Shown piece by piece: positions 1,609 through 38,949 of a stretch of 41,032 nucleotides of DNA. Below the pieces are notes generated by a model, which did not search any database, was not told the DNA's origin, and saw only the letters and a list, made by a program, of their open reading frames with translations. Every line of letters starts with the position of its first letter. Position 1 is the first letter of the stretch. The stretch comes from Phycisphaerales bacterium (lineage in GTDB: Bacteria > Planctomycetota > Phycisphaerae > Phycisphaerales > SM1A02): assembly GCA_028823105.1 (NCBI GenBank), contig JAPKCC010000017.1, positions 1 through 41,032 of the forward strand, read 5' to 3'. A program made the position numbers and the translations under genes.

Positions 1609-2141
1609 CGGCCGTCGCCCGCTCGATCTGCCACGGTCTGGTCCCGGTGATGTGCATCGTGACCTGGGCGATTTCTGGATGTGGAGGCAAGGAGTCCCTG
1701 ATGCGAGAACCTGCGGCCACGGATGCGGATGAGGACCGAGTCGCTGGAATAGCGGCCGACTGGCGATGGAAGCATCGACTGCTCGTGGTCGCGACGGAGT
1801 CGCAGGGTGCAGAGTTGGACGGTCAGTGGATGCGGGTTGTCGAGGTGCGGGACAAGTGGCTCGATCGTGATCTCCTCCTGATCCTGCTCACCAGCGACGA
1901 AGGCTGGATCATTGACGACCCCTCTGCTGCTCGATCCGACTGGAGCAATCTCTCAGCGGGGGAGTCTGCGGCGTTCCGCCGTCGCTACGATCTCGCCGGA
2001 ACCGGATTCGAGGCGGTACTCGTCGGCAAGGACGGGGGAGTGAAGTCTCGATATTCCAAAATCGTTGATCCAGCCATGGTCTTCCCCTTCATCGATGCGA
2101 TGCCCATGCGGATGGACGAGATGCGAAAGGAATCGGAATGA
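1605..2141 (+). CDS. DUF4174-domain lipoprotein
   Basis: This 178-aa protein starts with a hydrophobic segment ending in AISGCGG, which fits a lipoprotein signal peptide with Cys near residue 25. The rest matches the DUF4174 pattern as I know it: an opening RWKHRLLVV strand, a central block with aspartates, then RRYDLAGTGF, VLVGKDGGVKSRY and a C-terminal IDAMPMRMDEMR. DUF4174 proteins are small and have a thioredoxin-like or peroxiredoxin-like strand pattern, but no redox CxxC is visible here. The ATG lies in a 4-bp overlap with the protease stop, and its own stop overlaps the sulfatase start, so the three are probably translated from one mRNA. The biochemical role is unknown. Confidence 0.8.
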   Translation: MTAVARSICHGLVPVMCIVTWAISGCGGKESLMREPAATDADEDRVAGIAADWRWKHRLLVVATESQGAELDGQWMRVVEVRDKWLDRDLLLILLTSDEGWIIDDPSAARSDWSNLSAGESAAFRRRYDLAGTGFEAVLVGKDGGVKSRYSKIVDPAMVFPFIDAMPMRMDEMRKESE

Positions 2142-3604
2142 TCAACGTACGTCTCTTCGCCGGTTTGGCTCTGATGATCATGATCATCATGATCATCATG
2201 GCGACCACCGCGGTTGCGGGAGTCGGGCAGGGTGACCGTCTCGTCTCGACGTCGACCGGTCCCACCATTCCGGACCGTCCCGACATTCTTCTCATACTGA
2301 TCGACGATCTGGGGTGTCGGGACCTCGCCTGCGAAGGTCATGCAACGCACCAGACGCCGAACATCGACGCACTTCGGGCGCAAAGCGTTCGATTCACACA
2401 TGCGGGGTGCAACGGTCCCAACTGTTCTCCGAGCCGGGCGGCATTGGTCACGGCACGACACGGCAGTCGCACTGGTGTGCATACGGTGGGGAACGCAGGC
2501 CGGGGAAAGGCGGCCGATCGGCGGGTGGAGCCCCCGAAGAATGGCGTCCGCATTCGTGAAGACGAGCGGACAATCGCGGAGACCCTCGGCTCGGTGGGCT
2601 ATCGAACCGGCTTCGTCGGAAAGTGGCACGTGAGCGTTGATCCCACGACTCAGGGGTTTGACCGCAATATTGCCGGGAACAAAGCCGGTCATCCAAAATC
2701 CTATTTTCCGCCGTATCGAAACGCGGATCTGAAGGACGGACCAGAGGGCGAGTACCTGATCGATCGCTTGGCCGCCGAGACGGTTGGCATGATCGACTCG
2801 TTCGAGGCCGACTCCTCCAAGGATGGTCGGCCTTGGTTTGTGATGTACGCGCCGTACGCGGTTCATTCTCCGATTCAAGCGGACCCCGCGTCGGTCGCGG
2901 CGATGAAGACTCGACATCCGCAGATGAATGAGCGGGCGGCTCGCTACGCGGTGATGGTCGAGGCGACCGATCGGGCGGTCGGCGCGATCCTGGCGGCCAT
3001 CGATCCCGCCCGCACCGTGGTGTGCTTCGCCAGCGACAATGGTGGTCTTCAGCCGGTCACCGACATGTCGCCGTGGCGAGGGGGAAAGGGCATGCTCTAT
3101 GAAGGTGGTGTGCGAACGCCGCTCTTCGTTCGGGTGCCGGGGCTTCCTCCAAGTGATGTCGAAACGCCCGTGCAGCTCTTTGATGTTCATCCGACGTTGG
3201 TCGAACTCGCCGGGGCGGCGATGCCCATCGACCGGCCGATCGACGCCGTTTCGCTGGTGCCGGCGCTTCGCGGTGATCCGCTCGATCGTGGCGCTCTCTT
3301 CTGGCACTTCCCGGCCTATCTTGAAGGGCGTGATGCCGAAAGCCATGAGCCTGGACGGCCATTCCGATCCACGCCGAGCGGTGCGATCCGAGAGGGTCGG
3401 TGGAAACTTGTCGAGTGGTTCGAAGATGGTGACGTGGAACTCTACGATCTCGAATCCGATCCGGGGGAGCGGGTTGATCGGAGCGAGACCGAACCCGATC
3501 TCCGCGAAGCAATGCTCGGAAGACTTGCGGCATGGCGGCTTCGGATGGGTTCAGCGATGCCCACGCCGATCGCCGTCGCGCCGGCCTCGCCGGTCTCGGA
3601 CTGA
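2138..3604 (+). CDS. Secreted type I (formylglycine) sulfatase
   Basis: This 488-aa sulfatase has an unusual Met/Ile-rich signal peptide. The metal-binding aspartates are in ILIDDLG, and the active-site signature is C96-S-P-S-R100, whose Cys would be converted to formylglycine by a maturase not present in this window. The usual TGR at the end of the signature is TAR here. Later family blocks are visible: GKWHVS, FASDNGG and a typical C-terminal LYDLESDPGE. These enzymes hydrolyse sulfate esters, commonly on sulfated polysaccharides in marine planctomycetes; the substrate cannot be read from sequence. The start is preceded by AAGGA and overlaps the DUF4174 stop by 4 bp. The gene closes the operon, facing a convergent DinB gene 21 bp away. 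Confidence 0.93.
   Translation: MINVRLFAGLALMIMIIMIIMATTAVAGVGQGDRLVSTSTGPTIPDRPDILLILIDDLGCRDLACEGHATHQTPNIDALRAQSVRFTHAGCNGPNCSPSRAALVTARHGSRTGVHTVGNAGRGKAADRRVEPPKNGVRIREDERTIAETLGSVGYRTGFVGKWHVSVDPTTQGFDRNIAGNKAGHPKSYFPPYRNADLKDGPEGEYLIDRLAAETVGMIDSFEADSSKDGRPWFVMYAPYAVHSPIQADPASVAAMKTRHPQMNERAARYAVMVEATDRAVGAILAAIDPARTVVCFASDNGGLQPVTDMSPWRGGKGMLYEGGVRTPLFVRVPGLPPSDVETPVQLFDVHPTLVELAGAAMPIDRPIDAVSLVPALRGDPLDRGALFWHFPAYLEGRDAESHEPGRPFRSTPSGAIREGRWKLVEWFEDGDVELYDLESDPGERVDRSETEPDLREAMLGRLAAWRLRMGSAMPTPIAVAPASPVSD
2174..2200 (+). repeat. ATG/ATC codon repeat in the sulfatase signal peptide
   Basis: Nine consecutive codons are only ATG or ATC, giving MIMIIMIIM as the hydrophobic core of the signal peptide. 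The DNA contains overlapping TGATCA palindromes. Confidence 0.85.
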
Positions 3605-17776: not shown

Positions 17777-20716
17777 ATGAAGACCATGCACTGGCTCCTC
17801 GTCGCACTCTCGCTTCTCGTTTCAGCATCCACGGGCTTCGCGTCTGGGGATTCGCCTCGCTGGATCTGGATCTCCGCTGCTCCGGGGGTCGGAGAACACG
17901 CGATCTTCGATGTCGATATCGAGATCCCATTGGGATCGAAGAATCTCGTGGTCCGAGCGGTGGTCGACAACGAATTCGTGCTCCGTCTGGATGGCGAAGA
18001 GGTGCTTCGAGGAGATGACTGGTCATCGCCTTCGATTCTCGACCTCTCGAAGCCGGAACCAGGCCGCCACCGGCTCTCGTTTGAGTGTCGCAACGAGAGT
18101 GGGCCGGCGGGGCTCGCCGCGATCATCGAAATTGATACGCCGTCGGGCGTGGTGCGGAAGGTCTCCGGCCCTGACTGGATGGTCAGAGGCACCGGAGAGA
18201 CAACGGATGACGCCCGGACGCCGATCGACTTCGGTTCGACCGAAGCCCCCGACGGACCCTGGAAGAATCCTTTTGAAGAGAAGATCGCGACGCCGGTCGA
18301 GGCGATCACCGTTCCCGATGGTTTCGAGGTCGAACTGCTGCACTCAGCGCAGCCGGGCGAAGGATCCTGGAGTTCGATGACCGTCGACGATCGGGGCAGG
18401 GTCATCCTCTCCGCGCAGTACGGCCCGCTTCGGCGGATCACTCCGGCGGATTCGCCGGGAGGACAAGCACGGGTCGAGCGACTTCACGAAACAGTCGGTC
18501 GTGCCCAAGGGCTGCTGCTGGTTGGTGACGATCTCTACGCGAGCGTCGTCGACGATCCAGACCGGAGCGGGGGGCTCTGGCGACTCCGGGATGCCGATGG
18601 GGATGATCTCTTCGAAACCGCGGAACGTCTCGCCGCCTACGGGAATGGTTCCGAGCACGGCCCGCATGGTCTGGTGCTGGGGCCGGACGGGATGATCTGG
18701 ACGGTGATCGGAAATTATTCCAGGCATCCGCAGCCGATTCTGGAGACCAGTGCTCACGCCAACTGGGCCGAGGACACCGTGCTCGAACGGATCTGGGATC
18801 CGCGAGGACATGCGGTGGGCAAACGTTCTCCCGGTGGCCTGGTGCTGCGAACCGATCTGGACGCCACCGGATGGGAGATTGTTGCAGGCGGTTTCAGGAA
18901 CCCCTACGACCTCGATTTCACGGCCGATGGCGAACTCTTCACCTACGACGCCGACATGGAGTGGGACATCGGTACGCCGTGGTATCGAAGTCCGAGGTTC
19001 ATCCACGTGGTCTCCGGCGGCGAGTACGGATGGCGAGGCGGCAGCGTGAAGTGGCCCGTCGATTCACCTGACGCAAGGCCGGCCGCCCTTGAGATGGACG
19101 CGGGCAGTCCAACCGGCGTGGCGAGTGGCCATCGGTCGAACTTCCCCGAACCCTGGAAGAGTCGGATGTTCCTCGGCGACTGGGCGTACGGCCGGGTGCT
19201 TGCAGTCGATCTCGAAGCCGATGGCGCGAGCCACGTTGCAACGGCGCACTCATTCCTGCAGGGGCGGCCATTCAACGTGACCGACTTTGCCTTCGGGCCG
19301 GATGGGGCGATGTATCTCACGACCGGTGGACGAGGATCGCAGTCGGGCCTCTACCGCGTTCGATGGACCGGTCCGATGTCTCAGGATGCGGCCACGCCGA
19401 CGAAGATCACGACCGCGATCCTCAGGCGACGTTCGCTGGAAGCCTCGCATCGGGATGCCAATGCGGTCTCTCACGAGGCGCTCTTTGACGGTCTTGGGGA
19501 CGCGGATCCCGCTATTCGATATGCCGCCCGAATCGGCGTGGAGCGTGCATTGCTTGCGGCGAGAGACGGTGAACCCGGCGCCTTCACAGAGTCGGACGAC
19601 GATGTCGTCGAGGCGCTGCTTGAACTTCCCGCCGATGCGGGCGGATGGGATGCCGCGATCGCGATGATGCGGGTCGGTGACCGTGCAGATGCGATCGGTA
19701 GCATCGGTCGGATTCAAGAAATGGCGGAGGAAGACGACTCCGATTCCGGGAGGCGTCAGCTCGCCCGCGTGCTTGGGTTGCTCCTCACCCGTCACGGTCC
19801 TCTCGAGCCTGAGCCCGCTTCGAAGGTCATCGATTCGGTCGAGTTGATCTATCCGTCCGGCGTCTTCGAGACCGATCGAGTTCTGGTCGAAGTTCTCGTG
19901 GCGCTCGACGCCCCGTCGGTCATCGCCAGAACGTTGCCGCTGATCGAGGCGGCCGACCGGCAGGAGACGGCCATCATCTTTCTGCATGCCCTTCGGTTGC
20001 AGAAATCTGGTTGGGATGAGGACTCCCGGGGTCGGGTCATGTCGGCCCTTGATCGAGCGAAGTCGTACTCGGGCGGCGCGAGCCTTCCGGGGTTCGTCGC
20101 GGCGATCAGATCCGACTTCGCAGACACCCTCGGACCGGCCGCTGCCGAAACACTGGCCGCTCGAGAAGCCGCCATGAAGGAAGCCGCGATTGAAACGGAA
20201 GTCCGTGCGTTCGTGCGAGCCTGGTCGGTCGACGATTTTTCGACGCACCTCGCGCGGGTTCATGCAGGGCGAGACCATGCTCGGGGAGCGATGATGTTCG
20301 AAGCCCTGCAGTGTGCCGCGTGTCACAAAGTGGGCGACGTGGGCATTGCCTACGGGCCGGACCTCACCGGCGTTGGCGGTCGATTCTCAGCCCATGATCT
20401 GCTGGTCGCGATCATCGAGCCTGCACGAGATCTTTCGGATCAGTACGCGGGGGTCCTTGTCGAGCGCGGCGATGCCGATCCGGTCATCGGACTTCCCATC
20501 GTCGAGGAAAATGGAATGCTCGCCGTCGCGCCTGATCCGCGAACCGGCACGCTCCGGGTCGAGATTCCGTTGTCGGAAATCACTGCTCGAACTCCCGTGA
20601 CTCCGATGGCCGCGGGGCTTGTCGACACGGCGAGCATGGACGACATTCTCGATCTGCTCGCCTACATGCGGTCGGCGGGAGATCCTACGGATACGGCATT
20701 CAAGCGTCCGCCGTGA
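17777..20716 (+). CDS. Planctomycete-type membrane-bound dehydrogenase/cytochrome c protein
   Basis: The 979-aa protein has a signal peptide (MHWLLVALSLLVSASTGFAS), then a beta-sandwich-like domain (about 25-140), a quinoprotein-like propeller (about 175-530, with DGFEVELLHSAQ, HGPHGLVLGPDGMIW and FAFGPDGAMYLTTGGRGSQ), a helical repeat region, and a C-terminal haem domain with C846-A-A-C849-H850 followed by GPDLTGVGGRF. It matches the large planctomycete 'membrane-bound dehydrogenase' proteins, thought to oxidise sugars or other substrates in the periplasm with electrons passing to the covalent haem. The actual substrate is unknown. It begins a co-directional run with methyltransferase, lipoprotein and DUF1592/DUF1552 genes. 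Confidence 0.88.
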   Translation: MKTMHWLLVALSLLVSASTGFASGDSPRWIWISAAPGVGEHAIFDVDIEIPLGSKNLVVRAVVDNEFVLRLDGEEVLRGDDWSSPSILDLSKPEPGRHRLSFECRNESGPAGLAAIIEIDTPSGVVRKVSGPDWMVRGTGETTDDARTPIDFGSTEAPDGPWKNPFEEKIATPVEAITVPDGFEVELLHSAQPGEGSWSSMTVDDRGRVILSAQYGPLRRITPADSPGGQARVERLHETVGRAQGLLLVGDDLYASVVDDPDRSGGLWRLRDADGDDLFETAERLAAYGNGSEHGPHGLVLGPDGMIWTVIGNYSRHPQPILETSAHANWAEDTVLERIWDPRGHAVGKRSPGGLVLRTDLDATGWEIVAGGFRNPYDLDFTADGELFTYDADMEWDIGTPWYRSPRFIHVVSGGEYGWRGGSVKWPVDSPDARPAALEMDAGSPTGVASGHRSNFPEPWKSRMFLGDWAYGRVLAVDLEADGASHVATAHSFLQGRPFNVTDFAFGPDGAMYLTTGGRGSQSGLYRVRWTGPMSQDAATPTKITTAILRRRSLEASHRDANAVSHEALFDGLGDADPAIRYAARIGVERALLAARDGEPGAFTESDDDVVEALLELPADAGGWDAAIAMMRVGDRADAIGSIGRIQEMAEEDDSDSGRRQLARVLGLLLTRHGPLEPEPASKVIDSVELIYPSGVFETDRVLVEVLVALDAPSVIARTLPLIEAADRQETAIIFLHALRLQKSGWDEDSRGRVMSALDRAKSYSGGASLPGFVAAIRSDFADTLGPAAAETLAAREAAMKEAAIETEVRAFVRAWSVDDFSTHLARVHAGRDHARGAMMFEALQCAACHKVGDVGIAYGPDLTGVGGRFSAHDLLVAIIEPARDLSDQYAGVLVERGDADPVIGLPIVEENGMLAVAPDPRTGTLRVEIPLSEITARTPVTPMAAGLVDTASMDDILDLLAYMRSAGDPTDTAFKRPP

Positions 20717-20777: not shown

Positions 20778-21440
20778 ATGTCGAAGGAGAATCGAATCTC
20801 GAAGACCGGGCCGCCGGCTCACCTCATCGGCGCGGAGGGTGTTGCCCATCAGGTGTTCCATGACGCCTACCGCGAGTCGAAGGCCTCTTGGGTGACGGCG
20901 CGGCCTCAGCCAGCGGTGATGACCGCGTTGTCGAGGGGGTGGTTCGATGACGGCCCGCTTCTCGATCTCGGGTGCGGCACCGGCGAGAACGCCGCAGCCA
21001 TCGCGACGGCACGAAAGAAGTTGCGGATTCTGGCAGTCGATGCGGTTCCGCAGGCGGTTGAGCAAGCGCGACTGGTGATCGCCGCGGCTTCTCTGACGGA
21101 TCGCGTGCACTTTGAGGTCGCAGACCTTCGCGATTTCAAAGCGATGGAACCGTTCGGAACGGTGCTTGACGCCGGAGTGCTTCACGTGTTTTCTGATCAG
21201 GATCGAATCACCTATCTCGAGATGGTCACCCGGGTGCTCCGGCCCGGCGGCACCGCGATCTTCATCGAATTCAGCGACGCGGAGACCCGCCCTCGAGGGC
21301 CTCGGCGGCTTACCCGCGGCGAACTCTGTTCGGCGTTGTCTCTGGCCGGCTTCACGATCGACTCGATCGAGCCCACCAGATACGAGACCACGGTGCATTC
21401 CGGCGGCGCCGCGGCGTGGCTCACGAGGGCCATCCGTTGA
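20778..21440 (+). CDS. Class I SAM-dependent methyltransferase
   Basis: I use the ATG at 20778, since the ORF-track start at 20619 lies inside the preceding gene. The 220-aa protein has the Rossmann SAM fold: motif I LLDLGCGTGENAA, ILAVDAVPQAVEQAR, VHFEVADLRDF, LDAGVLHVFSD and VLRPGGTAIFIEFSD. The sequence resembles small-molecule methylases of the Methyltransf_25/thiopurine type, but the substrate cannot be read. It is cytoplasmic. It sits 61 bp after the dehydrogenase gene, probably co-transcribed. Confidence 0.87.
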   Translation: MSKENRISKTGPPAHLIGAEGVAHQVFHDAYRESKASWVTARPQPAVMTALSRGWFDDGPLLDLGCGTGENAAAIATARKKLRILAVDAVPQAVEQARLVIAAASLTDRVHFEVADLRDFKAMEPFGTVLDAGVLHVFSDQDRITYLEMVTRVLRPGGTAIFIEFSDAETRPRGPRRLTRGELCSALSLAGFTIDSIEPTRYETTVHSGGAAAWLTRAIR

Positions 21441-21534: not shown

Positions 21535-23010
21535 ATGCCGAATCGCTCCCGAGTACCCGTAGGTCTCTCCGCATCGAATTCAATCCGAGCCAAGCTTCCC
21601 TTGAATGTGCTCCTCGTGGCACTGGGTGCGTGTGGCGGCCTCCTCGGGGGGTGTGTCAATCGTCAGGTCAAGGTGGAAATGCAAGCCGGCGCCGAAGGTC
21701 CGGTGCGGATCTTCGAGACGAATCGAGCCGATCGAGACGAGATCGGGCGACTGTCGGAGACCTACGAAGCGGCGCCGTCTAGACGGAGTGACGGAAAGGA
21801 CGGCGTACGGTTCGAAGGCGTGTTCGCGGAACGCGACCTGCCCAGCGAGATTGGCAATCGCAATGGGTGGTCGACGCTGCCGGGAACTTTCGGGACGGCG
21901 TTCCTCTATGTCGAGCAATTTGGCGCTGCCCGCGACGACTGGGGCGCGTTCCGTGATCGCATGAACGCGGGGGAGCTGTGGATTCGAATGGCGATTCGAT
22001 TCTTCGAGTCACGCATCGAGGATGAGGAGGCGCGGACGGAATGGAGGCGGGTCGCGAACGAAGAATTGCTTCCAGATGCCATGAGCGCCTTCCTCAGGTT
22101 CAACGCAGGTGGGTACGTCCAACAGGGTCAACGAGTCGACACTCGATTCCGCCCGCCCGAGGAACGAGGCCCGCGAAGCGATGATGAGTGGTTCCAACTG
22201 CAGGTCTTTGCGCCGCTGGTCGCATTTGCGGTGGAGAGATCCTGGATCGAGCCTTGGGAGGCGCAACTCGTCCTTCTCTCCGGCATCGACGGCTGGGTAT
22301 CCGCTGGTGAACGAGCGTGGACCCGGAAGGAACTCGCGGATCCGATCGTGAAACGAACCGTCCAGAAGTTCGTTCCGGGCGCCGATCCGGGCGAGATCGG
22401 CCCCAGCAACCAGAAACTGATCTTCACCGGCCTTTCTTTCCTGTGGTGGGTGAACACCTCGAAGGAGGCGGTCGAAGTCATGCTCGACTCGCCCGCGATC
22501 ACGGACGCCGACAAGGCGAAGCTCCGCTCGGGGAATCGCTCGATCGATCTGCCCGGTCCGTTCGGCATTCCGATCGGGGGTGGCGAGCAACCGTTGGAAA
22601 GTGAAGTCGTGCTCCGAACCGACGCAGCACCGTTCCTGACCAACGGGAACTGGGACGAGAGTCTGGGAACGGTCAGTTTTGGAACCCGTATCTATCCGGC
22701 GGACCAACGCCGACGAATGACCCCGCCGGTTTTCCACGCGAGTTGGGCGGTGCCCGACGAAACCACGCAGACGGAAATCTTCGGTGCGGTCGTGTTCGTG
22801 GGCCAGGATCTGGGCGAGGTCGTCTTCTGGGAACGGACGCTCGACGACGACACCGCGAAAAAATGGCTCGCGGCGATCGAAGCGGCCAGGCTTGCCGGTT
22901 CGCCGGAGGTCTTGCGCGACATCCTCGACCGCGTAGAGGGAGAAGCCGCGACCAACCGGCCCGCGCCGACGGCGCTCCGCAACGCAGTGTTTGAGGCGCC
23001 CGGCGCATGA
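21535..23010 (+). CDS. Lipoprotein of unknown function coupled to a DUF1592 gene
   Basis: The 491-aa protein has a signal peptide ending in a lipobox (GLLGGC, Cys near residue 40). The mature part is largely soluble, with blocks such as FLYVEQFGAARDDWGAFRDRM, WIRMAIRFFESRIEDEEAR and VFHASWAVPDETTQTEIFGAVVFVGQD. I recognise no family. Its TGA overlaps the ATG of the DUF1592 protein by 4 bp (ATGA), so the two are probably made together and may work together in the envelope. The gene is of normal GC and not degenerate. Confidence 0.78.
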   Translation: MPNRSRVPVGLSASNSIRAKLPLNVLLVALGACGGLLGGCVNRQVKVEMQAGAEGPVRIFETNRADRDEIGRLSETYEAAPSRRSDGKDGVRFEGVFAERDLPSEIGNRNGWSTLPGTFGTAFLYVEQFGAARDDWGAFRDRMNAGELWIRMAIRFFESRIEDEEARTEWRRVANEELLPDAMSAFLRFNAGGYVQQGQRVDTRFRPPEERGPRSDDEWFQLQVFAPLVAFAVERSWIEPWEAQLVLLSGIDGWVSAGERAWTRKELADPIVKRTVQKFVPGADPGEIGPSNQKLIFTGLSFLWWVNTSKEAVEVMLDSPAITDADKAKLRSGNRSIDLPGPFGIPIGGGEQPLESEVVLRTDAAPFLTNGNWDESLGTVSFGTRIYPADQRRRMTPPVFHASWAVPDETTQTEIFGAVVFVGQDLGEVVFWERTLDDDTAKKWLAAIEAARLAGSPEVLRDILDRVEGEAATNRPAPTALRNAVFEAPGA

Positions 23011-25472
23011 TGGCGGGCGATGAGATGCGAACGTTTCGGCCGGCGCGTCTGGCTCGACTCGTTTTGATTCTCGCCTTCCCGGTGCTTGTTCTTCCATCTC
23101 TGGCGGTCATGACGCCTTCTCCGAGCGCCGTCGCTTCGAGATGGATTGCCGACGGCGAGATTCCGGATCTCTCGTCATTCGCCGAAGTGGTGGACATTCA
23201 CTGTCTGGAATGTCATCGCAACGCGGAAGACGATGGCGGTGTGGATCTTCGAAGCCTTGCGAAGTCAGGGGAGATCGCGTCCGTCGACCCGGTCCTCCTT
23301 CTCGCGGTGCGGGATCGACTTCGGGCTCGGGACATGCCGCCCCGAAAGCCGGTATCTGAAGACGCGAATCCGGTCGTTGCGCGACCGACGGAGGCGGAGT
23401 ATCGCGAGGGGATCACCGTATTGGGCGGCCTGCTCGCCGAGCAAGCGGTTGATGCCGGCGTACCCGGCGTCGTCCTGCGTCGGTTGAATCGGTTCGAGGT
23501 CGCCAATGCCATCGAGGATGTGTTCGAAATTGCCATCGACATTTCGACGCTGCCCGCAGACGATGTCGGCCATGGGTTCGATCATCTCGGGGAGGTTCTG
23601 GCGACTTCGCCGCTGCTCTTTGAGAAGATCGTGGACCTCGCGGAATCAGTTGCCCGGCGTTCGGTCTTCGATGCCGCCACGGCCCTGCCCGAGATCCAGA
23701 TCGCGGCGGGTGACACGCTCGAGGGTGGTCGGGCGATGCGAGGTGGTCGATGGCTGTCGACCCGCGGCGAGGTCTCCGCCGAGATTCCACTCCCACGCCC
23801 CGGCCGGTACCGCGCCGAATTTGACCTCGCCGGACAACAGGCTGGACCGGAGGCGGTGCGCTTCGAACTTCGGGTGGACGATGTCGCCGTCGATCGCGTG
23901 GAGGTCTCCGAGCCACCCGCCGCGCCGGCCACCCATACCGTCGAGTTCGAGCACGCGGGGAACGCGAGAGATGGAGTGAGGCTTTCGGCGTTCTTTCTCA
24001 ACGACTACTACCGCAAGGACGATCCGGATCCGAAGAACCGAGATCGAAACGCGCTGGTAGCCGAGATTCGACTGGTCGGCCCGCTCGATCCGGGCGAACC
24101 GAGTCGGATGCAGCGATCCCTCGCGGCACGGATGAATCGTGGCGATCGTCGTACCGGACTGGCGAGGGCCGCCAGATGGCTCTTGGAGCGGTGCTGGAGT
24201 CGCCCGATCGCATCGGACGAAGCAATGGCCGTGGCCGATGTGGCGATGGCTGCCGCCGGATTTGATCCCGACGCTGATCAAGGAGCCGGGGGAGACGGCA
24301 GAGCCGAGATGATGCAGGCACTGATCGTCTATGCCATTGCGAGCCCGGAGTTTCTTTTCAGAATCGAACGGCCGAGGGAAGGCGCGGCGATCGCCGCCGA
24401 CGATTCGATCCCGCTCGACGGGCATTCGATTGCGGGGCGTCTCGCGGCGTTTCTGAAAGCGAGCATCCCGGACGCGGCGTTGCTTGAATCGGCCAGAGCC
24501 GGCCGGCTCGACTCGGGGCGGGGAATCCTTCGGGAGGTCGACCGGCTTCTCCGACAAGGTGGCTCCAGATCGTTGGCAGAACGATTCGCAACTCAGTGGT
24601 TGCATGTGGAGGGGCTGGAACGACTCGAACCGGACCCGGGAAGATTCGGAGATATCCCGACCACGTTGCTCGCCGACATGCGGGAAGAGACGATCCGCGT
24701 CTTCGAAGAACACGTTGAGAATGAGCGGAGCATTCCATCCCTGTTTCATGATTCGACTTCTTGGTGGTCTCCCGCGCTGGCGATTCACTACGGGATCGAC
24801 CCGATCGAACTGGAACTCGAGCCGTCGGGATTCAGCCGGGTGGATCTGTCGAGGGTCGACTTTCCACAAGCTGACCTCGGGCTCCTCCGCCATGCGAGCG
24901 TGCTCGCGGTGACCAGCAATCCGACGCGAACCTCCCCCGTGAAGCGAGGAAAGTGGGTGATGGAGTCGCTTCTGGACTGCCCGCCGCCCCCACCTCCGCC
25001 CGGGGTCGCACAGTTGCCCGACGATCTTGCATCGGATGGCGAGGCGCAGTCACTGCGGCAGATCCTCGAAATCCATCGAAGGGATCCGGACTGCGCGTCC
25101 TGTCACCTACGAATGGACGCATTGGGATTCGCGCTGGAACCACTTGACGCCGTGGGTCGGTGGCGCGACGAGGAAGACGGGCGACCCATCGATGCGGCGG
25201 CGACGCTGCCGGATGGCAGGCGGATCGAAGGGCCGCGTGGATTGAGGGATGTGCTGGTTGAGGATCCAGCGTTGCTCCGGTCATTCGCGAAGCACCTCTT
25301 GATCTATGCCCTCGGTCGAGGCCTCGAGTGGCGGGACGAACCATTGCTCGACGGGCTGGCGGTCAAACTTCAAGACCGCCCCACTGTGCGTGCGGCGATT
25401 GAATTCATCGTGACGAGCGACGCATTCCGGCGGATGCCTCGACCGGTGGACGGCGGCGCGGAACCCGAATGA
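23007..25472 (+). CDS. DUF1592/DUF1588/DUF1585 planctomycete cytochrome protein
   Basis: The 821-aa protein has an N-terminal hydrophobic signal (LARLVLILAFPVLVLPSLAVM), a cytochrome-like haem motif C66-L-E-C69-H70, DUF1587 (NRFEVANAIEDVFEI), a carbohydrate-binding-like sandwich (about 230-330), DUF1595/DUF1592 helical regions, DUF1588 with TRTSPVKRGKWVMESLLDC and PPPPPP, and a second motif C696-A-S-C699-H700 leading into DUF1585. This architecture is common in planctomycetes, almost always next to a DUF1552 gene as here. The role is presumed to be periplasmic oxidation linked to polymer use, but is not proven. ATG at 23010 is an alternative start. Confidence 0.9.
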   Translation: MMAGDEMRTFRPARLARLVLILAFPVLVLPSLAVMTPSPSAVASRWIADGEIPDLSSFAEVVDIHCLECHRNAEDDGGVDLRSLAKSGEIASVDPVLLLAVRDRLRARDMPPRKPVSEDANPVVARPTEAEYREGITVLGGLLAEQAVDAGVPGVVLRRLNRFEVANAIEDVFEIAIDISTLPADDVGHGFDHLGEVLATSPLLFEKIVDLAESVARRSVFDAATALPEIQIAAGDTLEGGRAMRGGRWLSTRGEVSAEIPLPRPGRYRAEFDLAGQQAGPEAVRFELRVDDVAVDRVEVSEPPAAPATHTVEFEHAGNARDGVRLSAFFLNDYYRKDDPDPKNRDRNALVAEIRLVGPLDPGEPSRMQRSLAARMNRGDRRTGLARAARWLLERCWSRPIASDEAMAVADVAMAAAGFDPDADQGAGGDGRAEMMQALIVYAIASPEFLFRIERPREGAAIAADDSIPLDGHSIAGRLAAFLKASIPDAALLESARAGRLDSGRGILREVDRLLRQGGSRSLAERFATQWLHVEGLERLEPDPGRFGDIPTTLLADMREETIRVFEEHVENERSIPSLFHDSTSWWSPALAIHYGIDPIELELEPSGFSRVDLSRVDFPQADLGLLRHASVLAVTSNPTRTSPVKRGKWVMESLLDCPPPPPPPGVAQLPDDLASDGEAQSLRQILEIHRRDPDCASCHLRMDALGFALEPLDAVGRWRDEEDGRPIDAAATLPDGRRIEGPRGLRDVLVEDPALLRSFAKHLLIYALGRGLEWRDEPLLDGLAVKLQDRPTVRAAIEFIVTSDAFRRMPRPVDGGAEPE

Positions 25473-25583: not shown

Positions 25584-26948
25584 ATGGCGAAGACGCTTCA
25601 TCGACGTACGGTTCTTCGTGGGATTGGGACCGCCATCGCGCTTCCCTGGCTTGAGGCGATGTCACCCGGGACGATCACCCGGACCGCTCGAGCGGCGACC
25701 CGAAATTCCACGCCGACGCGATTGGCGTTCCTCTTCGTCCCGAACGGCGTTCACGCCCCGGAGTGGCTGCCAACCCCGGGAGCTCCAGGCGCATCGTCGA
25801 TTCTGGCCGAGTTGCCGCCCTTGCTCCGTCCCTTGGATCGAGTCCGTGAACACATCACGCTTCACAGCGGGCTCTCGCATCGAAACGCGACTGCCCTCGG
25901 TGATGGCCCCGGTGATCATGCTCGAAGCGCGGCTTGTTTTCTGACCGGCACTCATCCCAGAAAGACCGCGGGCAGCGACATTGTGAATGGAGTCTCCATC
26001 GATCAGGCGGTCGCGGCGGGCAACCGAGGGCGAACTCGGTTCGACAGTCTGGAGATCGGATGCGATCCGACGCTGACCGCGGGCAATTGCGACTCCGGGT
26101 ATTCCTGCGCCTATAGCGCTAACATCGCGTGGCGATCGCCGCGGACACCCGTGGCGAAAGAAACCAGCCCTCGAGCGGTCTTTGAACGTCTCTTCATGGC
26201 GGGCCCGGTCGGTGAGTCCATGGAGGCAAGAGGCCGTCGTCTGAGCCGCCGGCGAAGCATTCTCGACGCGGTGCGCGGTGATGCGGTTCGACTCTCCAGG
26301 GATCTCGGTGGACGCGATCGAGCCAAACTCGAGGAGTACCTCGATGGCGCGAGAGAGCTCGAGCGTCGCATTGAACAGGTGGAGCGATCCGAGCAGGATT
26401 CATCGGGGTGGGGAATCGATCGACTTCCGCCCGGAGTGCCGGGAGACTACGGGGACCACCTTGCATTGATGGGGGACCTGATGACGCTCGCGTTCCGATT
26501 GGATCTGACTCGCGTCTGCACGTTCATGTGGGCCAACGAGGGTTCCAATCGGACATTCCCGATGGTCGACGTCCGAGAGGGGCATCACCATCTCTCGCAC
26601 CACGCCGGCGATCACGCCAAGATTGACGCGATTCGGCGGATTAACCTGTGGCAGAACGAACGCTTCGCGGATCTGATCGCTGGCCTGGCCGGCATCGAGG
26701 GCGAGCACGGGGGATCGCTCTTAGACGACACGCTGGTGCTCTACGGAGGGGCCATCTCCGACGGTAACCGCCACAATCACCATGATCTGCCGATCGTGGT
26801 TGCCGGGGGTGGCGGTTCCGCAGCGCCAGGACGACAAGTGTCGCATGCGCCTCGAACCCCACTCTGCAATCTCTACCGGTCGATGGCTTCAGCCGCTGGC
26901 ACGCCGTTGGATCGTTTTGGCGATTCCAACGGCTCGGCGATGCTCTGA
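25584..26948 (+). CDS. DUF1552 protein
   Basis: The ATG at 25584 has GGAG 9 nt upstream; the ORF-track start at 25518 adds unsupported sequence. The 454-aa protein begins with an RR-containing signal (HRRTVLRGIGTAIALPWLEAM), which suggests Tat export. DUF1552 blocks include RLAFLFVPNGVHAPEW, HARSAACFLTG, GVSIDQAVA and the C-terminal SDGNRHNHHDLPIVVAGGGG. It pairs with the DUF1592 gene upstream (112-bp gap), as in many planctomycetes, so both probably act in one periplasmic process. The reaction is not known. Confidence 0.9.
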   Translation: MAKTLHRRTVLRGIGTAIALPWLEAMSPGTITRTARAATRNSTPTRLAFLFVPNGVHAPEWLPTPGAPGASSILAELPPLLRPLDRVREHITLHSGLSHRNATALGDGPGDHARSAACFLTGTHPRKTAGSDIVNGVSIDQAVAAGNRGRTRFDSLEIGCDPTLTAGNCDSGYSCAYSANIAWRSPRTPVAKETSPRAVFERLFMAGPVGESMEARGRRLSRRRSILDAVRGDAVRLSRDLGGRDRAKLEEYLDGARELERRIEQVERSEQDSSGWGIDRLPPGVPGDYGDHLALMGDLMTLAFRLDLTRVCTFMWANEGSNRTFPMVDVREGHHHLSHHAGDHAKIDAIRRINLWQNERFADLIAGLAGIEGEHGGSLLDDTLVLYGGAISDGNRHNHHDLPIVVAGGGGSAAPGRQVSHAPRTPLCNLYRSMASAAGTPLDRFGDSNGSAML

Positions 26949-26989: not shown

Positions 26990-27598
26990 TCAGGCCGGCT
27001 TGAGAAGAAGCGTTGTGCCGAGGGCTGCGATTTCATCCACGAAATTGGTAGCGGGACCCGCCAGCTTGCCGAGATGGATGTCCCGGGGGGGACCAAGAAG
27101 CAACCCGCGGAAAGCTGAGAAGCTTGCATCGGTGAGATTGAGCAGGGATCCCGGTGGCGGCGTGATTTTCTTGAAGCATGCGACGAACAAGTCCGAGTTT
27201 GCGGTGAAGGCAGCATGGTCGATCGGCATCACCGGGGGAAACGTGAGCAGCACGAATGAGAAAGCATTCGGTCGTTCGTCGTAGAAGCGGTAGCTCGACT
27301 CCACCCATGATCGGATGAACGTGCCGAGATCCGTCTCATTGGTGGCCGACGCTCGCCGAGTCGCCGCCAATTCAAAGACGAGGCTTGAGAAGACCTCCTC
27401 CTGCATCGCATTCTTGTTCTCGAAGTGATGGTAGAGCACCGCCTCGTTGCAATCAGCTTCGCGTGCAATCGCTCGAACACTCGCGTTCTGAATTCCGTCG
27501 CTGCCCACGACCTTGATCATTGCGTCCATCAGTCGTTGCTTTGTGCGGGCACCAGTTCGCTTCGGTGATTTCGTGGGAGACGTCATTGTTGAGTTCAT
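26990..27598 (-). CDS. TetR-family transcription regulator
   Basis: The 202-aa protein (ATG at 27598; 27586 is an alternative) has an N-terminal TetR helix-turn-helix, ASVRAIAREADCNEAVLYHHFENKNAM, and a helical ligand-binding domain. The recognised ligand is unknown. Its gene is convergent with the DUF1552 gene (41-bp gap) and reads away from the 533-bp intergenic region to its right, where a palindrome may be its operator. It may control itself and the divergent flavoenzyme gene at 28132, but that is inference. Confidence 0.9.
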   Translation of the reverse strand: MNSTMTSPTKSPKRTGARTKQRLMDAMIKVVGSDGIQNASVRAIAREADCNEAVLYHHFENKNAMQEEVFSSLVFELAATRRASATNETDLGTFIRSWVESSYRFYDERPNAFSFVLLTFPPVMPIDHAAFTANSDLFVACFKKITPPPGSLLNLTDASFSAFRGLLLGPPRDIHLGKLAGPATNFVDEIAALGTTLLLKPA

Positions 27599-27708
27599 TT
27601 TCTCGTGGTTGCGTGTTGTAGAGGTTCGGGCGGGAATTTGGCGGCTCAGAATCGGCATGTCTTGGGTCTGACGGTCGAGGAGTCACAACGTTGCGTCGAA
27701 TCTAAAGG

Positions 27709-31863: not shown

Positions 31864-32925
31864 ATGAACCCGAGCCGCGTCCATTACCGAAGTTCATGCC
31901 TCCTGCTCGGCGCAGCCTTCCTCGCAGGGGCCGCTCAGGCACAGGATCAACCCTCGCCCGACCACCCCTTCGTATTCGCCAGAGAGATCTGGCGGGTCCC
32001 GGTGACGGCGGCGGCCTTGCACGACGACTCGACCTTTGCGAAGACGCCGGATCGCGTCGAGATCGTCTCGCGCCCGGTGGGCGCCGATGATGCGGGGGAC
32101 CACTTCGTCCAACGGATCCGCGGATGGATCGAGGCTCCACGAACCGGCTCGTATCGTTTTTCGATCACTTCGGATGACGATGGGTTGCTCTTCCTTTCCC
32201 CGTCCGAGGCTCCCAACGAACGTGCCTTGGTGGCGGCGGTGACTGGTTTCACCGGGGCGGGAGAATTTAATCGTCAGCCGAAGCAGACCTCGAGGCCGTT
32301 GACCTTGATCAAGGGCCAGCGGTACTACCTGGAAGCCCGGCACCGAGACCAGGATGGTCTTGACCATCTCTCGATCGCCTGGAGAGGGCCGGGAATGCCG
32401 TCGGGCGTGTCTATTCCGATCGGGATGTCCTTGGTTCCGGAATTCACGCTGGAGACCTGGGAGAACACCGCTCGAGGTGATCCGTCGAGTCTCCCAGTCT
32501 TCGAGACACCTCCAGATCGAGTGCAACGATTGTTTTCCATGGGCTCCAATGACGTGGGGGTGAATGTGGCCACGCGGCTTCGGGGCCAATTCTTGCCGCC
32601 CAAGGACGGTGAATACCGGTTTCTGGTGACCGCGGACGATCTGGCGGAACTTCGGATGCTCGACGCCACCCAGCCCAAGGGCTGGACCCGGCTCGCAGGA
32701 TTGACCGGCTGGACCAGCCCAAACGGCTGGGATGAGCGAGCCGAGCAGATTTCATCGCCCATTCGGTTGAAGGCGGGAATTCCGGTCCTGCTTGAGGCCC
32801 GACACTGGCAGGGCACCGGGCCCGGACATATCGGGATCGGGGTCATCGGACCCGGTGGCCTGGATCTTCGTCCGATCAAATCGATTCCGAAGTACGAAGA
32901 AACAGTGGAATCCGGAACCCGGTGA
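31864..32925 (+). CDS. Secreted protein with two PA14-like domains
   Basis: The start at 31864 has GGAG 9 nt upstream. The 353-aa protein has a signal peptide ending in LAGAAQAQDQ. Two PA14-type beta-barrels follow, with the typical GWIEAPRTGSYRFSITSDDDGLLFL then GQRYYLEARHRDQ in the first, and GQFLPPKDGEYRFLVTADD then GIPVLLEARHWQG in the second. PA14 domains bind sugars or act as adhesion modules. No catalytic domain is attached, so it is probably an accessory surface or periplasmic protein. It lies 169 bp upstream of the metalloprotease gene. Confidence 0.87.
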   Translation: MNPSRVHYRSSCLLLGAAFLAGAAQAQDQPSPDHPFVFAREIWRVPVTAAALHDDSTFAKTPDRVEIVSRPVGADDAGDHFVQRIRGWIEAPRTGSYRFSITSDDDGLLFLSPSEAPNERALVAAVTGFTGAGEFNRQPKQTSRPLTLIKGQRYYLEARHRDQDGLDHLSIAWRGPGMPSGVSIPIGMSLVPEFTLETWENTARGDPSSLPVFETPPDRVQRLFSMGSNDVGVNVATRLRGQFLPPKDGEYRFLVTADDLAELRMLDATQPKGWTRLAGLTGWTSPNGWDERAEQISSPIRLKAGIPVLLEARHWQGTGPGHIGIGVIGPGGLDLRPIKSIPKYEETVESGTR

Positions 32926-33094
32926 ACCCTCGAACTCGTTCTTCGTAAGACCTGAGAGAAGGGCAACCGCCTGGAAATCCATCGGTATTCGTGGAAGCCC
33001 CGTATCCTCTCAGCAACGGATACCGGCAGCGTCTCAAGATTGTGCAGTACGTCTGCCGTCAATGAATCATTTTCCGCTTTGGAGACTCAAACTC

Positions 33095-35875
33095 ATGGTT
33101 CACCCCCGAACCCTCGTCCTCGCCGGTGTGACCGGCCTTGCGGCCCTCGTCACCACGCTTCCGGCGACCGCAATGCAAGGTCCACCACCGTCGGCCAAGC
33201 CTGGTGCCAGCCAGGACTTCCCGCCATTCGCCAAGATTTCCGAAGGTTTCACCGAGGTGGCGCCGGCGGACGGCGGTCGAGGTCTGTATCGACTCTGGAT
33301 CAATAAGAAGACTCAGAAGACCCTCGCCGAGCTTCCCCGGAGCTTCGAGAAGCAGGATCTCTTCCTCGCCTGGACGGTCGCGGCCGGTGTCGAGACCTCC
33401 GCGGTCCAGACCGGTGATCAAGATGCGAAGTGGAAGCGATTCGGAAAGCGACTCGCACTCATCGAACCGAACTTCGCGGTCGTTTCCACCGGCGACAAGC
33501 AGAGCCAGGATGCGACGCAACGTGTCTTTACCGATCGCGTCATCCTCGAGGTGCCGATTCTCACGATGGGTCCGGGCGGTGGTCCGGTCATCGATCTGAA
33601 CGGTCTCTTCGTCAACCAGGCGAGCCGCTTCTTCGGTGGTGTCGTTGCTGGCGCGAACACTCGGCTCGTGACCATCGAGAAGGCCAAGACCTTCCCGAGC
33701 AACGTCGAACTCTGTTACGAGATGCCGCTCTCCAGCGGTCGGTTTGCGAAGTTCTACTATTCGATCGCCGCGATTCCCAGCAACACGGGCTACAAGCCTC
33801 GCGAGGCGGATGACCGAGTCGGCTTCTTCACGACGAGCATTCAGGATCTCGGGGATCCAGCGGCGGATACGCCGTGGAAGCGATATATCAATCGCTGGCA
33901 GCTTGAGAAGGCTGATCCCAAGTTGAAGATGAGCCCGCCGAAGAAGCCGATCGTCTTCTACATCGAGCACACCGTTCCGGTGAGGTACCGCCGGTGGGTC
34001 CGTGACGCGATCCTCGAGTGGAACACCGCCTTCGAAGAAATCGGGATCGTCAACGCGGTCGAGGTCTACCAGCAGGACGCCAACACCGGTGCCCACATGG
34101 AGAAGGACCCCGAAGATGCCCGCTACAACTTCATGATCTGGACCAACGCGAACATGGGTTTCGCGATCGGGCCTAGCAGAGTGAACCCCCGTACCGGTCA
34201 GATTCTCGATGCAGACATCGTGATGGACGAGGGATTCGTGAGTTCCTGGGTTGACGCCTACGAACGTCAGATTCCTCACGCCTCCATGGAAAGTCTCGGT
34301 TCCGAGACCATCGAATGGCTGGTCGAACACCCCGAGTTCGATCCCCGCGTGATTCTCGCCGCTCCCCAGGATCGCGAGCAGGTCACCACGGAGATCGCGG
34401 CCCGATTCGAAGAACTCCGAGGCGAAGGGCTTCGGGCGATGCATCCGAGTCTCGACGGTGCTGGTCGACTCATCGCGGGCGGTGGCCCGGATGGTAATGC
34501 CATCGAGAGCAACGTCAACGCCTGCACCGCGTGCCAGAACGCGATGCGAAAGTCGATGGACGTGGCCTTCATGCGGATGAACGCCGAACTCCTCGGAATG
34601 GTCAATCCTGAGGACAACGACGGACAGATGCTTGATGGCGTTCCCGAAGAGTTCATCGGTCCTCTCCTCAAGGAGGTGATCATGCACGAGGTTGGACACA
34701 CCCTTGGCCTCCGGCACAACTTTGTGGGTTCTGAACTCGTCTCGTACGAAGAGATGAATAGCGAAGGCTTCGACGGTCCGATCTCCTCATCCGTGATGGA
34801 CTACCTGCCGGTCAACATTGCATTCGGCGATAACGTCGAACAAGGACCCTGGACCACGACGGAGCTCGGTCCGTACGACCTCTGGGCCATCTCTTACGGC
34901 TATACCTCCGGCAAGACGGACGCCATCCTCGCCCGTTGCGGAGAGCCCGAACTTCGGTATCTCACCGACGAAGACACCATGGGACCGGATCCCATGGCAC
35001 GCCGATTCGATCACGCCAAGAACCCGCTCGACTACGTCGATGCGCAACTTGCGATCGTCAAGGAACTTCGGGGCCGGATCATCGATGACATGGTCGAAGA
35101 CGGCGAGAGCTGGGCGAAGGCTCGCCAGGCGTACCTGATGCTTCTGTCGAAGCACCGCAACGCCGTGGGGACCGCCAGCAACTGGATCGGCGGCAGTACG
35201 GTCAATCGCGTCAAGAAGGGCGCCGAACTCGACCCGATCTCTGACGTCCCCGCGGATCAGCAGCGTCGTGCCCTGGCCATCGTTCTTGATGCCACCACGC
35301 CCGACGCCGCCTACGGTCTGAATTCGGAACTCCTCCGGAAGATGACGGTCGAGAAATGGTTCGACGGCGGTGGCATGCGGGCGGCTATGACGGATCCGAC
35401 CTTCGATGTGCATAATCGCATCGGCGGGGTTCAGCAGACCGCGCTGACCCTCATCCTCAACCCGACCACCTTGAACCGGATGTACGACAACGAGTTCCGG
35501 GCGGAGCAGGGCGAGGACGTGCTCACCATTCCCGAGACCATGGAAGCTGTGAGGGCTGCAGTCTGGACCGAGCTTGATGCCCGTCCGGACGGCAAGCAGA
35601 CGAACAGCGATCCGTATATCTCAAGTCTTCGTCGAAACCTGCAGCGGGCTCAGCTCGAGCGTTTGGTTTCGCTCGCCGGTGAGAACAACCGTTTCGGGGC
35701 TTCCTCGACCGCGGTCAGAAGCCTTTCGCGGCAGCAGCTTCGGCAGCTCGACGAGCAGATCAGCGAGGCTTTGAGTCGTGACGGAAGTCGGCTCGACGGG
35801 TATTCGAAGGCTCACCTCAACGATGCGAAGGCGGTCATCGATCGCGTTCTCAACGCGGACTACGTCTACAACTGA
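33095..35875 (+). CDS. Secreted zinc metalloprotease (DUF5117/DUF4953 type)
   Basis: The ATG at 33095 has GGAG 10 nt upstream, while the ORF-track start lies inside the previous gene. The 926-aa protein has a signal peptide (LAGVTGLAALVTTLPATA), a DUF5117-like N-terminal beta region and a metalloprotease core with H531-E-V-G-H535-TLGLR-H541-NF, the extended HExxHxxGxxH zinc site. The C-terminal part is helical. Such large proteins are common in Bacteroidetes and planctomycetes and are thought to degrade external proteins, though few are studied. A CTAC pair lies before the zinc site. A hairpin terminator follows the gene. Confidence 0.9.
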   Translation: MVHPRTLVLAGVTGLAALVTTLPATAMQGPPPSAKPGASQDFPPFAKISEGFTEVAPADGGRGLYRLWINKKTQKTLAELPRSFEKQDLFLAWTVAAGVETSAVQTGDQDAKWKRFGKRLALIEPNFAVVSTGDKQSQDATQRVFTDRVILEVPILTMGPGGGPVIDLNGLFVNQASRFFGGVVAGANTRLVTIEKAKTFPSNVELCYEMPLSSGRFAKFYYSIAAIPSNTGYKPREADDRVGFFTTSIQDLGDPAADTPWKRYINRWQLEKADPKLKMSPPKKPIVFYIEHTVPVRYRRWVRDAILEWNTAFEEIGIVNAVEVYQQDANTGAHMEKDPEDARYNFMIWTNANMGFAIGPSRVNPRTGQILDADIVMDEGFVSSWVDAYERQIPHASMESLGSETIEWLVEHPEFDPRVILAAPQDREQVTTEIAARFEELRGEGLRAMHPSLDGAGRLIAGGGPDGNAIESNVNACTACQNAMRKSMDVAFMRMNAELLGMVNPEDNDGQMLDGVPEEFIGPLLKEVIMHEVGHTLGLRHNFVGSELVSYEEMNSEGFDGPISSSVMDYLPVNIAFGDNVEQGPWTTTELGPYDLWAISYGYTSGKTDAILARCGEPELRYLTDEDTMGPDPMARRFDHAKNPLDYVDAQLAIVKELRGRIIDDMVEDGESWAKARQAYLMLLSKHRNAVGTASNWIGGSTVNRVKKGAELDPISDVPADQQRRALAIVLDATTPDAAYGLNSELLRKMTVEKWFDGGGMRAAMTDPTFDVHNRIGGVQQTALTLILNPTTLNRMYDNEFRAEQGEDVLTIPETMEAVRAAVWTELDARPDGKQTNSDPYISSLRRNLQRAQLERLVSLAGENNRFGASSTAVRSLSRQQLRQLDEQISEALSRDGSRLDGYSKAHLNDAKAVIDRVLNADYVYN

Positions 35876-37947: not shown

Positions 37948-38949
37948 CTATTGCGAAGGGGCGATTTCGCCGGTTCCCGCCGGTGAAGCGATCGATTCCG
38001 GGGTCTGATTCGGTCTGAAGTTCCCGATGCCGGAGTTCGGGGGTCTCCAGTCGTCGGTCGGTCGGATGGCGATCCCCGCGGCCGGAATGGAGGCCTCTTG
38101 ACCCAACGCCCAGAGGAGCCCCTGCACGAGCAAGCGTCGGCACGATTCAGACCGGAAGTCGTACGGGTGGCCGAGGGTCGTGAAGAACACCCTTGATGGT
38201 CTGCCGGACTTCGGATCATTCTCGTAGATCCAGGCGACGGGATTTGAGGCGGGGAAACGATCGTGCCTCTCCGCGTGATAAGACTTGAGGGTTGTACCGG
38301 TGGCGAGCGAGGTTGGTTCGCCGGAGAGGGAATCTCCGCCACCCTCGACGTGGTAGAGCCACGAGTACGCGTCGAAGGGTGCCACGCCGCGGAGGATTGG
38401 ATGCGTCGAGCCTTCCACGGGTTCGATGTGAGTCAGCGGCGACTTTCCATCGTCGAAGTGGCCGTGATGCGTGATCCATCGCTGTCCAAAAAGCTGGCGC
38501 GGCCACTCTCCGTTGAGCGGAGCATGCTCGAGATCGTCATCCGGATACCGGAAGGCATGGGTCGCGGTTCGGAGTCCGACGATCGGACGCCCCGACTTCG
38601 CGTAATCGAGGATCGGCGCGAGTTGCTCGTCGGGGAGGGCTCGGAATCTGGTGAACATCACCACCAGGTCCGCCGTCGCCAGGACATCCGTCCCCGGGAT
38701 GTTGTCCAACGCGTTCGGGTCGATGAGGCCGTTCTCGTCGAGGCTATAGAGGACGGTGGTTCGGACCCCGTGATCCCGAGCGAGGATCGAGGCCAGCAAT
38801 GGGAGCGATTCCTCGCTTCGGTACTCCTCATCACCAGCAATGAACACGACGTGCGGCGTATCCGGTTCGTCGGGCGGGTGACCGGTGGTCCGCGGTGCTG
38901 CCTGGGCCAGCAGAAGCGCGGGGAGGATGACGAGGGAGATGGTAAGCAC
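37948..38949 (-). CDS. Secreted ThuA-domain protein
   Basis: The 333-aa protein has a signal peptide (ISLVILPALLLAQAAPRTTG) and a ThuA-like flavodoxin fold: HVVFIAGDEEYRSEE, ADLVVMFTRFRALPDEQL, IVGLRTATHAFRY and PSRVFFTTLGHPYDFRSESCRRLL. ThuA proteins relate to trehalose and other sugar use, and planctomycetes have many exported copies, probably in breakdown of glycans. The active residues are not established. The gene is divergent from the PhoD-like gene with a 155-bp spacer that should hold both promoters. Confidence 0.85.
   Translation of the reverse strand: MLTISLVILPALLLAQAAPRTTGHPPDEPDTPHVVFIAGDEEYRSEESLPLLASILARDHGVRTTVLYSLDENGLIDPNALDNIPGTDVLATADLVVMFTRFRALPDEQLAPILDYAKSGRPIVGLRTATHAFRYPDDDLEHAPLNGEWPRQLFGQRWITHHGHFDDGKSPLTHIEPVEGSTHPILRGVAPFDAYSWLYHVEGGGDSLSGEPTSLATGTTLKSYHAERHDRFPASNPVAWIYENDPKSGRPSRVFFTTLGHPYDFRSESCRRLLVQGLLWALGQEASIPAAGIAIRPTDDWRPPNSGIGNFRPNQTPESIASPAGTGEIAPSQ

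Follow-up and report, generated by a model that had tools for sequence, protein, structure and literature searches.

The analyzed window is a stretch of 41,032 nucleotides, which represents one contig of a 3.35-Mb genome. Among named records, the closest are MAGs from marine Phycisphaerales, for example Phycisphaera sp. TMED9 and MED708. The genes and motifs examined here are as follows:

17777-20716, + strand: haem dehydrogenase-like protein of 979 aa with a GSDH-like region and the haem motif CAACH (cytGSDH)
20778-21440, + strand: class I SAM methyltransferase gene, located after cytGSDH and before the lipoprotein gene
21535-23010, + strand: lipoprotein gene (LIPO), 491 aa, without Pfam, NCBIfam or PDB relative
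21535-21654, + strand: LIPO signal peptide and lipobox LLGGC, with the codon of the lipidated Cys40 at 21652-21654
23007-23010, + strand: ATGA stop/start overlap of LIPO and DUF1592, conserved as ATGA/GTGA/TTGA
23007-25472, + strand: DUF1592-type dihaem protein of 821 aa with PSD3, PSD4, PSCyt3 and PSD2 domains and a CBM60-like middle domain
23202-23216, + strand: CLECH, the first of two CxxCH haem motifs, unchanged across 12 homologues
25092-25106, + strand: CASCH, the second of two CxxCH haem motifs, unchanged across 12 homologues
25584-26948, + strand: DUF1552 (HXXSHH) protein with a twin-arginine type N-terminus (PF07586, E=5e-94)
26990-27658, - strand: TetR-type regulator, whose counterpart abuts LIPO directly in genome G363
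32792-35875, + strand: Met-zincin (DUF5117/DUF4953) protease, whose orthologue immediately follows LIPO in genera g7 and g14

LIPO has a hydrophobic N-terminus preceding a lipobox and, as judged by motif, a type II signal peptide with a lipobox Cys; Cys40 is invariant in all 17 aligned homologues. The protein had been called an unrecognised lipoprotein in a preliminary description, and indeed no match was found in Pfam, NCBIfam or PDB sequences. In the AlphaFold2 model (mean pLDDT 83), a helical core lies between N- and C-terminal beta parts. A Foldseek search of the PDB with this model gave no fold match (best E 0.14, probability 0.03), and the ferritin-like and DnaK hits among its results were rejected as noise. 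Aside from the lipid Cys, the residues invariant in the 17 aligned homologues belong largely to the set Gly, Pro, aromatic, Arg, Glu and Gln, and neither a haem motif nor an obvious catalytic set was seen among them. None of the aligned homologues has Asp at position +2, which would suggest outer-membrane sorting by the E. coli +2 rule, if that rule applies here. Judging from these sequence features, the role of LIPO is most likely a binding or structural (non-enzymatic) one in the envelope. A Planctomycetota lipoprotein family without known structural relative is thereby defined.

In the DUF1592 protein, PF07626, PF07631, PF07627 and PF07624 all scored above their curated cut-offs. PSCyt1 (PF07635) at the N-terminus reached 19.5 bits against a cut-off of 22, and the CxxCH at residues 66-70 is the first of the two invariant haem motifs. 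The protein is predicted to be exported on the basis of its hydrophobic N-terminus. The DUF1552 gene starts 111 nt downstream in the same direction, and this order is repeated in the relatives read; the two form a recurrent pair, in support of the earlier statement that DUF1592 and DUF1552 proteins usually occur together. The whole source genome contains one DUF1592 and one DUF1552. In the model of the DUF1592 protein (pLDDT 75), the middle beta-sandwich matches CBM36, CBM35 and CBM6 folds; Cry-toxin names among the structure matches were set aside, given the many CBM matches to the beta-sandwich and global TM-scores of about 0.1. It has been reported that PSCyt3 genes usually adjoin a family of unknown genes, and that some PSCyt genes contain CBMs and lie near sulfatases (PMC5615132). 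Considering this remark together with the CBM60 match in Pfam and the CBM folds, our best guess is that the pair may act in carbohydrate processing. The region lies between a sulfatase gene (2138-3601) and a ThuA-like gene (37951-38949), a setting that fits polysaccharide use.

The overlap of the 491-aa LIPO gene with DUF1592 by ATGA, as first described, was confirmed at 23007-23010. The junction reads ATGA in five loci of genus g1 (including the window), GTGA in three other g1 loci and TTGA in the sister genus g244. The GTGA loci have an in-frame ATG three codons later that could be the true DUF1592 start, and the window also has an in-frame ATG at 23025; the conservation of the junction as NTGA across g1 and g244 argues against an artefact of start-codon choice. 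In one fragmented g1 assembly (L026, G002:C584), CGA replaces the LIPO stop codon and the frame continues to 660 aa, representing either a sequencing error or a real read-through. Exact 4-nt overlaps are present in 6 of the 19 co-directional neighbouring gene pairs called in the window. Such overlaps are ordinary here; the translational coupling suggested earlier is plausible, with the overlap conserved across two genera, though not special. The NTGA overlap and the adjacency have been kept in all but one genome of g1 and g244, at a DUF1592 identity of about 56%, and this persistence could reflect a real coupling in this lineage.

We carried out a family-wide survey of 181 genomes from 45 genera; a single-protein LIPO scan had retrieved only genus g1. 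LIPO was detected in 47 genomes (13 genera) and DUF1592 in 79 genomes (22 genera), and the LIPO family is scattered through Planctomycetota. Among the 181 genomes, LIPO-DUF1592 adjacency is limited to the eight genomes of g1 and one (G362) of the two LIPO-bearing g244 genomes. All eight g1 genomes have DUF1592 beside LIPO, followed by DUF1552 where the contig reaches (in G007 across a contig break). No such adjacency was found in the remaining 11 genera of the family that have LIPO, a result that rests mainly on loci with flanks read, as LIPO sometimes lies at the end of a contig. DUF1592 is encoded elsewhere in 22 of the other 38 LIPO-bearing genomes, two of which have it on the LIPO contig at distances of 15 and 28 kb; none was detected in the remaining 16. 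DUF1592 is likewise not a neighbour of LIPO in those loci that were read from further families and classes. Moreover, DUF1592-DUF1552 pairs without an adjoining LIPO are present in four genomes of other genera (G023, G013, G020 and G133; loci L092, L094, L095 and L096). In G013, the surroundings of the pair include a PVC-type cytochrome as well as DUF1080-type 3-keto-disaccharide hydrolase genes.

In g1, synteny extends from purE/purK through the TetR and DAO genes as far as the Met-zincin gene, and thus the adjacency within this genus is inherited synteny. Two copies of the LIPO-DUF1592-DUF1552 region were observed in the G005 assembly (contigs C15 and C33; L025 and L024), which has 6% contamination and probably mixes two strains; one copy (L025 3379-5257) has two or three tandem TetR-type genes, compared to one in the other members of the genus. 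With relatedness uncorrected, DUF1592 occurs in 31 of the 47 LIPO-positive versus 48 of the 134 other genomes (p=5e-4), and in 59 of the 89 genomes with cytGSDH-like genes versus 20 of the 92 without, the latter association being the stronger; as uncorrected comparisons, both carry little weight.

A pair-less locus was identified in the second LIPO-bearing g244 genome, G363. Its gene order is cytGSDH, methyltransferase, LIPO, TetR, DAO and Met-zincin; LIPO is intact, and a few bases separate its end from the TetR gene, which is convergent to it. Neither PF07631 nor PF07586 was found anywhere in this assembly (an 85% complete MAG). Because the pair is present in g1, G362 and G364, its loss in G363 is the simpler reading. 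We then compared relative rates in G362 and G363 against g1 sequences by counting lineage-specific changes. For cytGSDH, 43 changes in G362 versus 136 in G363 (p=2e-12) correspond to an approximately threefold faster rate in G363, where the protein (L099 16455-18869) has lost an N-terminal domain of about 150 aa and kept its CxxCH. LIPO has 35 and 50 changes (p=0.13), respectively; cytGSDH is the only one of the genes tested with a significant difference, and no loss or degeneration of LIPO was seen alongside the loss of the pair. Coming from one lineage, represented by a single genome, these sequence data are no more than suggestive of a tie between cytGSDH, rather than LIPO, and the pair.

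Taken together, LIPO adjoins the pair in two of the family's 13 genera that have it, which are sisters in the LIPO tree; it is intact in a genome that has no pair, and pairs elsewhere have no LIPO. The preliminary description had proposed LIPO as a lipid-anchored third partner of DUF1592 and DUF1552, to be checked by looking for it next to DUF1592 genes in other planctomycetes. With its meeting with the cassette limited to two sister genera and its homologues mostly unlinked to DUF1592, LIPO is unlikely to be a third partner of the pair in general. A larger periplasmic module with a haem dehydrogenase-like gene upstream had also been envisaged. This gene is real and is separated from LIPO by the methyltransferase gene; LIPO as a member of the module is not supported, and the idea gains some support from cytGSDH, which has strongly diverged in the pair-less genome and is the likelier extra partner of the pair. 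In g7, some 8 kb separate the cytGSDH homologue from DUF1592. A functional tie between the GSDH-like haem protein and the DUF1592-DUF1552 cassette is thus a testable lead.

LIPO might still have been recruited in g1 and g244 specifically, as a membrane anchor or scaffold for the DUF1592, DUF1552 and cytGSDH haem proteins, with translational coupling setting their stoichiometry. Such a module would agree with the overlap and gene order kept in two genera, with the weak co-occurrence of LIPO and DUF1592, and with the slight, non-significant excess of LIPO changes in G363. However, LIPO remains intact there without the pair, adjacency weighs little within synteny reaching from purE/purK beyond TetR and DAO, and 4-nt overlaps are common in the window; we regard this reading as rather unlikely. 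Its boldest form, in which a LIPO of unsolved fold would be the co-translated membrane anchor, in two genera, of a polysaccharide-acting periplasmic haem machine (cytGSDH-LIPO-DUF1592-DUF1552), appears doubtful.

A different candidate partner is the Met-zincin protease. In the window, about 9.8 kb separate its gene (with a true start probably downstream of 32792) from the stop codon of LIPO. The two genes are direct neighbours in three genomes of g14 and two of g7 (L032, L033, L101, L102 and L103). In the LIPO tree, g1 and g244 group with g7 and g14 (support 84/90), and a single clade with 100/100 support, in which the branching matches, unites the LIPO-linked Met-zincins. Across these four genera, the sequences place Met-zincin as the older neighbour of LIPO. 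In view of this adjacency and the congruent trees, the pair probably entered the locus in the ancestor of g1 and g244, coming to lie between the protease gene and LIPO. LIPO could then be an adaptor, substrate or inhibitor of the protease, its true partner, with the pair merely interposed. The direct adjacency in g7 and g14, the same-strand linkage in g1 and g244 and the congruent trees all speak for this. On the other hand, the genes are on different contigs in g48, g17, g29, g27, g28 and g12, and the spacers of about 210-240 nt bear no sign of coupling; we consider such a partnership improbable.

In other genera, LIPO has neighbours such as G6PD, LpoB/MFS, DNA polymerase III alpha and chaperonin genes. 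No universal neighbour was found across the loci read, and the differences among genera indicate that LIPO has no universal partner. In g17 and g48, an LpoB-type peptidoglycan-synthase activator gene adjoins LIPO convergently (L029 10377-11024, with the related gene in L077-L079). Neighbours that change in nearly every genus would also be expected if the arrangement had no functional meaning, with a gene order passed on by chance and no relation among LIPO, the cassette and the protease. This is very improbable, as the 4-nt overlap has outlasted changes of the start codon and the acceleration of cytGSDH in G363 suggests at least a cytGSDH-pair connection.

We therefore favor, with reasonable though limited confidence, an autonomous envelope lipoprotein whose transcription unit has acquired a carbohydrate-related redox pair. 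LIPO would be secreted and lipid-anchored, with a role of its own. In the marine Phycisphaerales ancestor of g1 and g244, the LIPO locus, already linked to Met-zincin, would have gained the DUF1592-DUF1552 cassette. The two proteins that it encodes are a dihaem protein, exported and equipped with a carbohydrate-binding-like domain, and a Tat-type exported HXXSHH protein. Together with the upstream cytGSDH, the cassette products would most likely serve periplasmic oxidation or processing of carbohydrates. LIPO and DUF1592 would share expression through co-translation at the ATGA overlap, and we infer that LIPO acts independently of the pair, with no physical partnership between them. The planctomycetal cassette can thus be present or absent beside an unrelated lipoprotein, and caution is needed, as one overlapping gene pair does not make a module.

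Compared with known systems, LIPO shares a signal peptide and a lipobox Cys with bacterial lipoproteins of unassigned function, and it differs in having no Pfam or NCBIfam model and no PDB sequence or fold match. The cassette resembles the PSCyt3/PSD (DUF1587-DUF1592-DUF1588-DUF1585) and DUF1552 (HXXSHH) pairs of PVC bacteria in its domain set, its two CxxCH motifs, its carbohydrate-binding-like domain and a same-strand DUF1552 immediately downstream. It differs from them in the 4-nt overlap of DUF1592 with a lipoprotein gene upstream, and its PSD4 score is lower (about 102-113 bits, versus about 115-160 in most relatives). With a weak GSDH-like region and a C-terminal CxxCH domain, cytGSDH resembles the PVC-type haem-binding GSDH-like proteins, although it scores below both NCBIfam curated cut-offs (63.2 of 122.2 bits for TIGR02604 and 63.6 of 68.15 for TIGR02603). 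Finally, the protein encoded at 32792-35875 has the same domains as Met-zincin proteases (DUF5117-DUF4953, PF17148/PF16313), and its gene, unlike those of g7 and g14, does not lie beside LIPO.
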